Part shown: positions 33,960 to 62,208 of the stretch, piece after piece
How positions within the stretch are numbered: the stretch's first letter is position 1
Layout of the letters: each line of letters starts with the position of its first letter
Assembly: GCA_037318855.1 (NCBI GenBank)
Contig: CP134874.1
Span: 992,598 to 1,056,597, forward strand
Direction of reading: 5' to 3'
DNA from: Candidatus Sedimenticola sp. (ex Thyasira tokunagai)
Lineage (GTDB): Bacteria > Pseudomonadota > Gammaproteobacteria > Chromatiales > Chromatiaceae
Length of the DNA: 64,000 nt
Position numbers and translations under genes: made by a program
Notes under the pieces: model-generated
The model's database searches: none
The model's input: only the letters and a program-made list of their open reading frames with translations
What the model was told of the DNA's origin: nothing

Positions 33960-34143
33960 GTTGTGACTTCCCTGATTTTCCGGTCCAATTAACAGCGCTC
34001 TGAGTTTCCCGCACCCTCATGCCCTTTGGCTTAGGTATCACCAGATATGCAGGTGGTCGTGGCAGGCACTACATATTGAATATAGCGGAAGATAGAAAAA
34101 AATCTTCAATAACTCCATGATTTGTAGCAGCTATTAGGTTAAA

Positions 34144-34429
34144 CCTAGAATCCTCAGTTGACCGCTCCATTCTACGGGCAAGGCATTGATTTTAATTACA
34201 TTGACTACGATTGCATCTTTCACTCTCCGGGTGAATAACGCTACAGGGCGGATAGCACACTTGGATTGGCGCATTACGGTGTTACAACTCCTTGGAATAG
34301 GCAGAAAATTGCTCCTGCATTTTCTGCATACCGTCCATCCATGGACATAAATGACTATTCCTCGTCGTTGTGCCTTGTACTACACCAACCCAAGCACACT
34401 CTCCACCCTGTCCAACTGAGGGTTCTAGG
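34144..34429 (+). mobile_element. CCTAGAATCC-ended MITE, copy 1 (286 bp, with central insertion)
   Basis: The ends are inverted copies of CCTAGAATCCTCAGTTG. TTAAA flanks both sides (34139-34143, 34430-34434). Compared with the other three copies, the five-base centre is replaced by about 54 bases (34301-34354) that hold two small hairpins. It is the first member of a tandem pair and shares its right TTAAA with copy 2. No reading frame is conserved. Confidence 0.85.
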
Positions 34430-34434
34430 TTAAA

Positions 34435-34671
34435 CCTAGAATCCTCAGTTAACCGCTCCATTCTACGAGCAACACATTGATTTTAATTACATTGACTGCG
34501 ATTGCCTATTTCACTATCCGGGTGAATTACGCTACAGGGCGAATAGCACACTTGCGGTGGCGCATTAGGTTGTTACAACTCCTTGGAATAGAACAACTAT
34601 TCCTCGTCGTTGTGCCTTGTACTGCACCACCGCAAGTGCACTCTCCACCCTGCCCAACTGAGGATTCTAGG
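34435..34671 (+). mobile_element. CCTAGAATCC-ended MITE, copy 2 (237 bp), tandem with copy 1
   Basis: This copy has the same inverted ends as copy 1 and is in the same orientation. TTAAA flanks it left (34430-34434) and right (34672-34676). The right TTAAA contains, on the minus strand, the TAA stop codon of the PDS kinase gene. Internal arms CTACAGGGCG...GCGGTGG and CCACCGC...CACCCTG fold into a long hairpin. Confidence 0.85.
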
Positions 34672-36786
34672 TTAAACAATAGTTGGAAAGGTAAGGGTGA
34701 AGCCGACCCCGGAGCCATCTGCCAGATTGTTGGCAGCCACCTTGCCTCCATGGAACTCGCAGATCAGTCGCACCAGATAGAGACCCAGGCCGAGGTGGGG
34801 CTCGGTTCCTTTTTCCGGGCGAAGGGAAACCATGGAATCAAACAGGTTTTGACTCAACTCAGAGGGGAGCAGTGGCCCCTGATTGTGGATCTCCAGTTGG
34901 ATCGCCTTCTGACCCTCTGTAAGTTGCAGTTCGATTGGAGTGTTTGGGCTATGGAAGTCGACCGCATTGCTGATCAGTTTGTCAAGTGCCTGGCTGATCA
35001 GGTCGGGTGCGCCTGTGAGCATTATCGGATGGGAGGGTGAATGGAACAGAAAGTGAGTGCCGGGGAAGGCTTGATGGTAGTTTTCCGATGCTATTTTGAT
35101 CAGGTTGGCCAGATCGAAAAGCTCAGTCTCTGTCTGCTGCATTAGCTGTTCGAGACGGGTGGCTTCACGCATACGGTAGAGGATCAGGCCGAGCCGTTCT
35201 GTTCCTTCTCTGGCACGGTCTATGTAGCGTTGCCGTGAGTTCCCACTGCTCTCCACCTCAAGGTTATCAAGAGAGCCTTTAACCACCACCAAGGGAGTAC
35301 GCAACTCATGCGCCAGCCTTGATGCCATCGCTTCCAGATACCGGTTGTACTCCTCAAGGCGATGGAAAACGTTGGAGAAGCTGCGCTCCAGATCGCCGAT
35401 CTCATCCTGTGAGGGGACTCCCTTCATAGTTCCAAGTATGCGGCCGTCTGGACTTACCGCTTCTTCCACCCGGTTGCGCAGGCGATGTATGCGGCCGGTC
35501 AACAGACTGGCAAAACCCAGCAGCGCCAGGCCGGTAAAGAGAAAAAAGGTGAGGGTGACGGCGAATAGTCGTTCAAGCGCCTCGTTTTGTAGACTCAATA
35601 TCTGATTGGTAGTCTGCTCCACCAACACTGTGCCGATGATTCCGTCAGGTGAGTGGATCGGCCAGGCGGCTGAGAGGACAACCGCCCGGCCATCGGCGGT
35701 TGAGCGGCGGCGTGCCTTCGCTTCCCCGGTCAGTGCCTGAGTTATTTCAGGGCCCTGTAGGCGGGAGCGACCACTGAACTCATCCTCAAATTGGTCAGTT
35801 GGCTGTACCAATATCAGTTGGAACAGCAGATGTAACAGGTTGCCGGGGATGGAGTTGGGTGTTGTCTCGTTAGTGGGCTGGTCCGGGGTTTTCAGCTGTC
35901 CACGTTGAGCAAGCACCCGTCGGTTGCGGTCGAGCACCCAGATGCGGGCATTTTCATGTTCCAGACCACCAATCAGCTGTTCAATCACCGGATTGGGACG
36001 AACCAGTTGTCCCAATGTGGCCAGTGTAGTCATGGGCGCTGTAGCAGTCTGTTGTACCAGGGCTCGGCTGATCGGATCATCGACATCGGCGATGCTGAAC
36101 GCAAGGCGGTCGCCTATCAGGTAGCGGGGTATTCTCAGCTCCAGGGTATAGCCCTCTCGGGACTCCTGCCACTCACCCTGGATACGCACCTCTGTGACTA
36201 CAGGGTAGACTGCCCGACGGTTTTCGGGCATCTGTTCGGCATTGACCCACCCTGGTGAGGTGGTGGTGATGCGGTAGCGCTTCAGCTCCCCTTCAGGAGA
36301 TTCCATGGCAAGCTCAACGTGATCACTATGGTCCATCCGCCGTTCCCCCGGGCGCTGATAGATAAGTCGATCATCACGTACTTGCAACAGCAGATAGATA
36401 TAGCCTCCCTGCTCTCCCATCAGGCTTTCAAATACCACCTCCCCCTGCTCCGGGTGGGATCTGATATTGCGCAGATGGCCTTGCCAGTCGTCAGTGTAGC
36501 CGTCAAGCTGGATGTCAGCGTTAAGGGGGTTAACGTAAAGGTGGGTGTCCGTTTTTTCAGATTCCTGGTCACCGGCGGCGGAGATAAACATCTCCTCGTG
36601 GTTGTGCAGAATTGCAGCCACCGCCTGAGCGGTTCCCAGCAGCATCGTCTCCTGACTGCGGCGCAGGAATATCTCGGTCTCCTGGATGTAGCGGTAGCCG
36701 GCCCAGGGGATCACCAGCAGGGTGAGGGAGACCAACGCCAGCTTGAAGCGGATGCTGTGAAAAAAGGGACGCCGGTATTCCTGCAT
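34672..36786 (-). CDS. pdsS: Proteobacterial dedicated sortase system histidine kinase
   Basis: The 704-residue kinase has an N-terminal helix (about residues 11-27), a large periplasmic domain, a second helix (about 405-425), HAMP (425-480), HisKA (about 487-550) and HATPase (560-700). The periplasmic part includes a carbohydrate-binding-like segment, NADIQLDGYTDDWQGHL to DHSDHVELAM. The HisKA H-box is RLAHELRTPL with His493; the HATPase has DKLISNAVDF and EPHLGLGLYLVRLI. Architecture and length match the kinase of the PDS system as I know that family. The response regulator gene is 6.3 kb away on the same strand, and the sortase genes about 22 kb away. Copies of the 237-bp MITE stand at both ends of the gene. 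Confidence 0.8.
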   Translation of the reverse strand: MQEYRRPFFHSIRFKLALVSLTLLVIPWAGYRYIQETEIFLRRSQETMLLGTAQAVAAILHNHEEMFISAAGDQESEKTDTHLYVNPLNADIQLDGYTDDWQGHLRNIRSHPEQGEVVFESLMGEQGGYIYLLLQVRDDRLIYQRPGERRMDHSDHVELAMESPEGELKRYRITTTSPGWVNAEQMPENRRAVYPVVTEVRIQGEWQESREGYTLELRIPRYLIGDRLAFSIADVDDPISRALVQQTATAPMTTLATLGQLVRPNPVIEQLIGGLEHENARIWVLDRNRRVLAQRGQLKTPDQPTNETTPNSIPGNLLHLLFQLILVQPTDQFEDEFSGRSRLQGPEITQALTGEAKARRRSTADGRAVVLSAAWPIHSPDGIIGTVLVEQTTNQILSLQNEALERLFAVTLTFFLFTGLALLGFASLLTGRIHRLRNRVEEAVSPDGRILGTMKGVPSQDEIGDLERSFSNVFHRLEEYNRYLEAMASRLAHELRTPLVVVKGSLDNLEVESSGNSRQRYIDRAREGTERLGLILYRMREATRLEQLMQQTETELFDLANLIKIASENYHQAFPGTHFLFHSPSHPIMLTGAPDLISQALDKLISNAVDFHSPNTPIELQLTEGQKAIQLEIHNQGPLLPSELSQNLFDSMVSLRPEKGTEPHLGLGLYLVRLICEFHGGKVAANNLADGSGVGFTLTFPTIV

Positions 36787-36865
36787 GATTTCTCAGTGGT
36801 GGTCGGATGATCGGTGGTCGGCTGTTTTTGAGGTGCTGTAATCGTAACGGTTCTGTATGAATAAT

Positions 36866-37101
36866 CCTAGAATCCTCAGTTGGACAGGGTGGAGAGTGCA
36901 CTTGCGGTGGTGCAGTACAAGGCACAACGACGCGGAATAGTTGTTCTATTCCAAGGAGTTGTAACGCCGTAATGCGCCGCTGCAAGTGTGCTATCCACCC
37001 TGTAGCGTAATTCACCCGGAGAGTGAATAGGCAATTGCAGGCAATGCAGTTAAAATAAATACGTTGCCCGTAGAATGGAGCGGTCAACTGAGGGTTCTAG
37101 G
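36866..37101 (-). mobile_element. CCTAGAATCC-ended MITE, copy 3 (236 bp)
   Basis: This copy has the same inverted ends as copies 1 and 2, in reverse orientation. ATAAT flanks both sides exactly (36861-36865 and 37102-37106), a 5-bp target duplication. With copies 1 and 2 it brackets the PDS kinase gene in inverted orientation. It lies between that gene and the divergent TPR/barrel gene, so it separates or alters their promoters. Confidence 0.87.
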
Positions 37102-37216
37102 ATAATCCAGCAAGTGCCGGTTGGAGGCAAATCAACGCTTCACTAATGGCTCAATTCTATTTAGCATTGTGTGATCTGTGTACCCTTTGATGTGGACAGC
37201 TGTAGAGGTATAGACA

Positions 37217-61715: not shown

Positions 61716-61952
61716 TTCTGAGTTATCTGATTCCCACGGTTCTCCGTGGGAATTCAGGCCCAGCCTAAAAACGACGGTTGCTGCTCTCCAGTCTTTCGGA
61801 GAGCGTGGCCGTGATCCCCGCATAGCGATCTTCTGATAGAAGCCAGTCAGGTATCTGTTTCCATACTGAAGTCCGGGTGGGATGAGATTTCATCCCCTGT
61901 AACCGCAGCAGCCCAGGCTGCGTTGGGCAACGCAGTGGCCCAACTGAATTAT

Positions 61953-62189
61953 CCTAGAATCCTCAGTTGGGCAGGGTGGAGAGTGCACTTGCGATGGTGC
62001 AGTACAAGGCACAACGACGAGGAATAGTTGTTCTATTCCAAGGAGTTGTAACGCCGTAATGCGCCACCGCAAGTGTGCTATCCGCCCTGCTGCGTGATTC
62101 ACCCTGAGAGTGAAATAGGCGATCGCAGTCAATGCAATTAAAATCAATGTGTTGCTCGTAGAATGAAGCGGCCAACTGAGGATTCTAGG
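61953..62189 (-). mobile_element. CCTAGAATCC-ended MITE, copy 4 (237 bp)
   Basis: The inverted ends are CCTAGAATCCTCAGTTG and CAACTGAGGATTCTAGG. ATTAT flanks both sides (61948-61952 and 62190-62194), a 5-bp target duplication. Orientation equals copy 3. It stands between the second c4 cytochrome gene and the fcc terminator. Confidence 0.88.
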
Positions 62190-62208
62190 ATTATATCAAG
62201 GCAAATAA

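Follow-up and report, generated by a model that had tools for sequence, protein, structure and literature searches.

The window, a stretch of 64,000 nucleotides (positions 992598–1056597 of contig C1 in G000, a single-contig genome of 4,564,458 bp, or 4.56 Mb), contains four copies of a MITE, here called A to D (Table 1). All four had been predicted from the sequence with the same boundaries. The 17-bp end occurred eight times within the window with at most one mismatch; the chance expectation with three mismatches allowed was 0.2. Copies A and B lie head to tail at 34139–34676 in the order TTAAA-MITE-TTAAA-MITE-TTAAA, and one of them inserted into the duplication left by the other. The outer duplication of copy B overlaps the end of a minus-strand gene (34672–36786), whose stop codon TAA is the TTA at 34672–34674.

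Table 1. Positions of the MITE copies, their parts and their flanking duplications in the window
Feature	Position	Strand	Basis or remark
TTAAA, left target duplication of copy A	34139–34143	none	
MITE copy A, 286-bp class	34144–34429	minus (the structured strand)	sequence, end scan, end pairing
Subterminal box of copy A (TCACTCTCCGGGTGA)	34220–34234	minus	starts at base 77 from the element end; motif analysis
49-bp apical cassette of copy A (TATGTCCATGGATGGACGGTATGCAGAAAATGCAGGAGCAATTTTCTGC)	34301–34349	minus	comparison of cassette-bearing elements
TTAAA, common to copies A and B	34430–34434	none	
MITE copy B, 237-bp class	34435–34671	minus	sequence, end scan, end pairing
Subterminal box of copy B	34511–34525	minus	read in the sequence; motif analysis
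TTAAA, outer duplication of copy B	34672–34676	none	sequence, gene calls
ATAAT, left duplication of copy C	36861–36865	none	sequence, end pairing
MITE copy C, 236 bp	36866–37101	plus	sequence, end scan, end pairing
Conserved internal hairpin of copy C	36884–37003	plus	alignment, fold, covariation
Subterminal box of copy C	37012–37026	plus	read in the sequence; motif analysis
ATAAT, right duplication of copy C	37102–37106	none	sequence, end pairing
ATTAT, left duplication of copy D	61948–61952	none	sequence, end pairing
MITE copy D, 237 bp, perfect 17-bp ends	61953–62189	plus	sequence, end scan, blastn, end pairing
Conserved internal hairpin of copy D (alignment columns 19–140)	61971–62090	plus	alignment, fold, covariation
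Subterminal box of copy D	62099–62113	plus	77 bp from the right end; motif analysis
ATTAT, right duplication of copy D	62190–62194	none	sequence, end pairing

Perfect 17-bp ends had been proposed for all four copies; this was correct for copy D, and the other three were one base off. The proposed length of about 237 bp applied to copies B, C and D (236–237 bp), and copy A was longer because of its 49-bp cassette. The flanking duplications were exact at every copy, as claimed.

Across the genome, a blastn search with copy D recovered at least 41 copies that were complete or nearly so, 17 of which reached 97–100% identity, and with other end variants included the family comprised at least about 70 elements. 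The 17-bp end was found 158 times with up to two mismatches to its G variant. Pairing of ends at the fetched loci yielded 66 acceptable elements, with five dubious pairs set aside; their lengths ranged from 68 to 287 bp, mostly 236–241 bp. Exact 5-bp duplications flanked 54 of the 66, distributed as ATTAT (12), ATAAT (9), TTAAA (8), TTTAA (7), TTCAA (4), ATGAT (4), TTGAA (3), ATCAT (3) and four single cases. All 54 followed the pattern NTNAN, and the outer bases were complementary in 52. The original prediction had named missing duplications at other genomic copies as the outcome that would speak against it; duplications were present there.

At the one locus examined for an empty site, between a gene pair which, from its translation, we take to be gpmI and an EnvC-like gene, the element was absent from the orthologous positions in related genomes. 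The identification as MITEs was upheld: the elements are short, numerous and without a transposase gene, show inverted ends and target duplications, and have their ends in common with an autonomous relative outside this genome. An autonomous relative in the same genome, usual for MITEs and not obligatory, was absent from the single-contig chromosome. Recent movement, also predicted, is supported by the 97–100% identical copies at separate loci with their duplications intact.

Three other sets of matches were set aside. Unpaired ends, considered as hidden autonomous copies, were mostly truncated MITEs; weak PF13701 matches, considered for the same reason, had no matching ends near the transposases; and pattern matches in viral contigs were partnerless ends in unrelated contexts. 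A search of plasmids with the full element gave no match, and a search of the accessible literature for the end sequences returned nothing relevant. Among 370 sampled gammaproteobacterial genomes, exact ends were present in 23 (20 of 273 genera). Two 110-bp elements (genome positions 385778–385887 and 1402908–1403017) apparently arose by separate deletions, each running from a GAGAGTG repeat in one arm to that in the other.

With respect to genes, 54 of the 66 insertions lay outside called genes, and the other 12 were close to a called gene boundary (up to about 90 bp from a start or 35 bp from a stop), in places where start calls are uncertain. Ten insertions fell exactly on a stop codon, copy B being one of them. 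Compared with intergenic sites that carry this motif, the excess is approximately fivefold (Fisher p = 4e-4), as estimated from home-made gene calls and ten events. One of the two strands of the target core TNA always reads TAA or TGA; the stop is therefore preserved by the duplication, and insertion into a stop codon leaves the gene intact. The orientation of the elements showed no bias towards genes (21 of 45) or towards replication.

The autonomous relatives are insertion sequences (ISs) of 1.63–1.70 kb in Beta- and Gammaproteobacteria that encode a divergent IS1380-like DDE transposase. Their 17-bp ends agree with those of the MITEs at up to 17/17 positions, and both have NTNAN duplications and, in a subterminal position, a TCACC-N5-GGTGA box; little sequence is common to them beyond the ends and box. 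A composite-end query matched a Polaromonas plasmid carrying a 1630-bp IS with a 510-aa transposase, TTAAA duplications and the ends CCTATTTTCGGCAGTTA and CCTAGAAACGGCAGTTA; a 234-bp MITE of the window family lies 357 bp downstream of it. Its transposase scored 86.5 bits against Pfam DDE_Tnp_1_4 (gathering score 34.7), and its best NCBIfam model was IS1380. The two parent proteins scored reached 155.5 (Polaromonas) and 121.6 bits, under the cut-off of 180 for NF033539 IS1380, which was still the best-matching model. Members of the IS1380 family have ends starting with CC and a 4–5-bp duplication, and both features were found in the parents. The Y-(2)-R-(3)-E-(6)-K signature and the candidate DDE residues were invariant in the parent-clade alignment. 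The earlier hint at IS1380, drawn from the initial CCTAGA, was thus right in kind.

One scan of genome contigs returned 73 loci, mainly in Burkholderiales; full loci were mostly 1630–1645 bp with ends of the CCTA..GCAGTT type. About 40 further copies were examined, most of which had 5-bp NTNAN duplications. G024, a genome of the same family as the window genome, carried at least 12 intact parent copies, and those examined were 1688 bp long, mostly with exact 5-bp duplications. Copies of 1703 bp with ends CCTAGAAACCGCAGTTA / CCTAGAAACCGCAGTTG were found in G081 and G203, and their right end, CCTAGAAACCGCAGTTG, was identical (17/17) to that of one MITE subfamily of the window genome. In G369, decayed remnants of parent-clade transposases were observed at three loci (L232, L239 and L242), and the ends of the MITEs of that genome are exactly those of the window, CCTAGAATCCTCAGTTG.

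A transposase gene flanked by the same ends, for which the original prediction had proposed a search, exists in ISs of other genomes, and none was found in the window's own contig. There, a parent-clade profile gave only weak matches, to other IS1380 copies with different ends and target duplications (TSDs). Since the parent-clade transposase is absent, the family is an orphan within this contig; a plasmid missing from the assembly could carry the parent. A clear parent-clade transposase was detected in only a minority of the genomes bearing ends or elements, most of those assemblies being fragmented.

The subterminal box was present in 47 of 50 full-length MITEs of the window genome, compared with 40 of 492 background tiles (130 bp, any position), with one mismatch allowed in TCACC-N5-GGTGA. 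In the full-length betaproteobacterial parents tested, it starts at base 76–77 from the left end, the aberrant L145 excepted, and overlaps the transposase start codon. Counted from the right end, the box of most MITEs starts at base 76–78, and the start codon no longer remains. This common position speaks for a derivation of the right arm of the MITE from the left arm of the IS. In the parents of G024, G022, G081 and G203 and in two distant parents, the box starts at base 87–89, about one helical turn further. The box is a candidate protein-binding site, and a two-part recognition site may be proposed, composed of the end and a box at base 77 or about one helical turn further.

Taken as a whole, the sequence comparisons make mobilisation in trans by a divergent IS1380-type transposase most likely: with a probability of about 0.88, these are non-autonomous MITEs of a divergent IS1380-like IS clade, moved by a DDE transposase of about 510 aa at NTNAN targets. 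The transposase supplied in trans would bind the 17-bp ends (CCTAGAWWCSKCAGTTG), probably aided by the subterminal box, and would cut the element out or copy it. The element would then enter WTNAW sites with complementary outer bases, giving rise to the 5-bp duplication; the core TNA always being a stop codon or its complement, an insertion there would duplicate the stop and be harmless to the gene. The source of the enzyme may have been an IS that was later lost, or a plasmid absent from the assembly. The family is new and of a known kind, with a conserved hairpin and a tip cassette as two unusual structural traits, and an orphan bacterial MITE family is now tied to a definite transposase clade.

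Among the closest described systems, ISEcp1 of the IS1380 family has the IRL CCTAGATTCTACGT and a reported 5-bp direct repeat (PMC7864471). The resemblance lies in the initial CCTAGA and in the parent transposase, closest to NCBIfam IS1380, whereas the window family differs in its 17-bp ends with a CAGTTG inner half, its strict NTNAN target and its subterminal box. The parent transposase (510–525 aa) moreover scores below the family cut-off, and no gene is present in the MITE. The TIMEs, miniature elements derived from Tn3 (262 bp upwards, with 5- or 6-bp duplications; PMC4133298), are likewise non-autonomous and duplicate AT-rich targets, but have Tn3-family rather than IS1380-type ends; Tn3 ends start with GGGG (PMC7864471). 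A Tn3-derived TIME was rejected, as the window MITEs lack 38-bp ends with this start. Correia/NEMIS, ERIC and QMITE1/2 are similarly palindromic, largely intergenic MITEs of 100–400 bp with a stable predicted RNA and, in part, size classes; they differ in their ends and duplications (TA termini for several; 7–11 bp in QMITE2), and neither a box in common with a parent IS nor cross-class covariation was reported for them (PMC2229807, PMC5896051). The hupL and dsrA MITEs of Thiomargarita are also gammaproteobacterial and without a known parent, but have 10-bp direct and 19-bp inverted repeats, or TATAG termini (PMC4853749).

The arms had been predicted to fold into one hairpin. Instead, a three-way junction was obtained: the ends pair over about 17 bp, a long hairpin comes next, and the right arm is separate from it. 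In eight genomes besides that of the window, beta- and gammaproteobacterial, the elements measured 234–238 bp save one shortened copy, and the loop positions were conserved as well as the length. Covariation was evaluated in an alignment of 28 sequences over 46 internal pairs. The outer helix was excluded, since a single transposase has to recognise both ends, which would make them covary in any case. Internal stem cells were 95.3% paired, and 34 of the 46 pairs showed two-sided compensatory changes across genera. The covariation score was 0.554, compared with 0.224 for shuffled and 0.09–0.12 for slid controls. Having been obtained from this very alignment, the structure has an advantage over the slid versions, and the weight lies on how large the difference is.

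The structured strand folded better than its complement in all 28 elements, by a mean of 20 kcal/mol (mean z −2.9, dinucleotide shuffles), and the consensus fold energies were −102.8 and −52.6 kcal/mol, respectively. G-U cells outnumbered A-C cells by 71:13, and by 32:12 on pairs predicted from both strands. From this strand asymmetry and G-U excess, we infer that the hairpin is conserved as one single strand that must fold, as RNA or single-stranded DNA. The MITE interior is not decayed filler and looks to be under structural selection, of which it would be a natural case. For transposition, the full hairpin does not seem essential, since a 145-bp class that lost most of it at a common junction occupies three loci, two with exact TSDs.

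What the hairpin and the cassette do, we infer from these patterns. The conserved strand may act as an RNA made from the element, for example a stabiliser, an RNase III site or a small RNA, to the benefit of element or host, a tentative reading whose chances we put somewhat short of even. The strand-specific covariation favours it, and Correia/NEMIS, ERIC and QMITE elements act or are processed as RNA (PMC2229807, PMC5896051). However, the lack of orientation bias relative to flanking genes speaks against it, as does the parent tnp promoter: its side is the counterpart of the MITE right end, so that the other strand would be expected to be transcribed. No sigma-70-like promoter above chance was found in the region scanned, no Rfam family exceeded its gathering score in the whole window, and the 145-bp class persists without most of the hairpin.

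The nearly invariant 49-bp cassette carried by the 286-bp class was found in 12 elements of the genome, copy A and 11 others, always at the same position in the hairpin tip and in the same orientation. It was not found outside these hairpins in the window genome or, searched by its first 23 bases with three mismatches, in 11 other genomes; plasmids, phages and viral contigs gave only partial, chance-like matches. Mean identity was 99.3% for the cassette and 81.6% for the flanking stems, and between the two main backbone types 99.0% and 74.9%, respectively. On a tree built from the backbones of ten cassette-bearing elements and of the 237-bp copies, its presence needs 9 changes, compared with a random-label mean of 9.45; the cassette backbones are polyphyletic.

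Independent insertions are our preferred reading of this distribution. The main rival is spread among existing MITEs by gene conversion, which is a real possibility although not the favoured one: precise conversion would explain the identical sequence and position, and the backbones have short identical flanks in common. Yet subfamily-specific bases (CGTAATAG...CTATTGC) persist about 5–15 bp from the cassette on both sides, which leaves almost no room for conversion tracts. If the cassette does insert by itself, it would be among the smallest mobile modules known to us. A still bolder combination is rather unlikely in our estimate: a selected, strand-specific fold kept across two bacterial classes, with its tip as the specific landing site of a mobile 49-bp cassette that inserted about nine times independently in one genome, so that one mobile element would reside inside the hairpin of a second and be specialised for it.

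Mutation bias alone, through hairpin-templated quasi-palindrome repair with no selection for the fold, is an improbable source of the conserved hairpin. Long inverted arms are known substrates of template switching, and the orientation of the elements follows neither genes nor replication; correction between arms, however, has no strand preference, which is at odds with the G-U excess and with the better folding of one strand throughout, and the element length and loop positions are conserved too.

The window genome also contains 11 intact IS1380 copies with 443-aa frames, many identical, which form a second IS1380 group that underwent a recent burst; ten of them (L031–L040) were equal in score, accompanied by many fragments. 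That these elements moved the MITEs is very improbable, because despite the same Pfam family (DDE_Tnp_1_4), the same genome and the intact frames, their ends (CCCCAATATTTC...CATGCGGG) and 4-bp YTNR duplications (CTAA, CTAG, TTAG, TTCA) differ from the CCTAGA ends and 5-bp NTNAN duplications of the MITEs, for which they were rejected as parent, and one copy treats a MITE end as its insertion target. That copy (L016/L032, about 785.4–787.3 kb) is inserted 5 bp into the MITE end with the duplication CTAG, and the composite is still flanked by the MITE's own ATCAT duplication.
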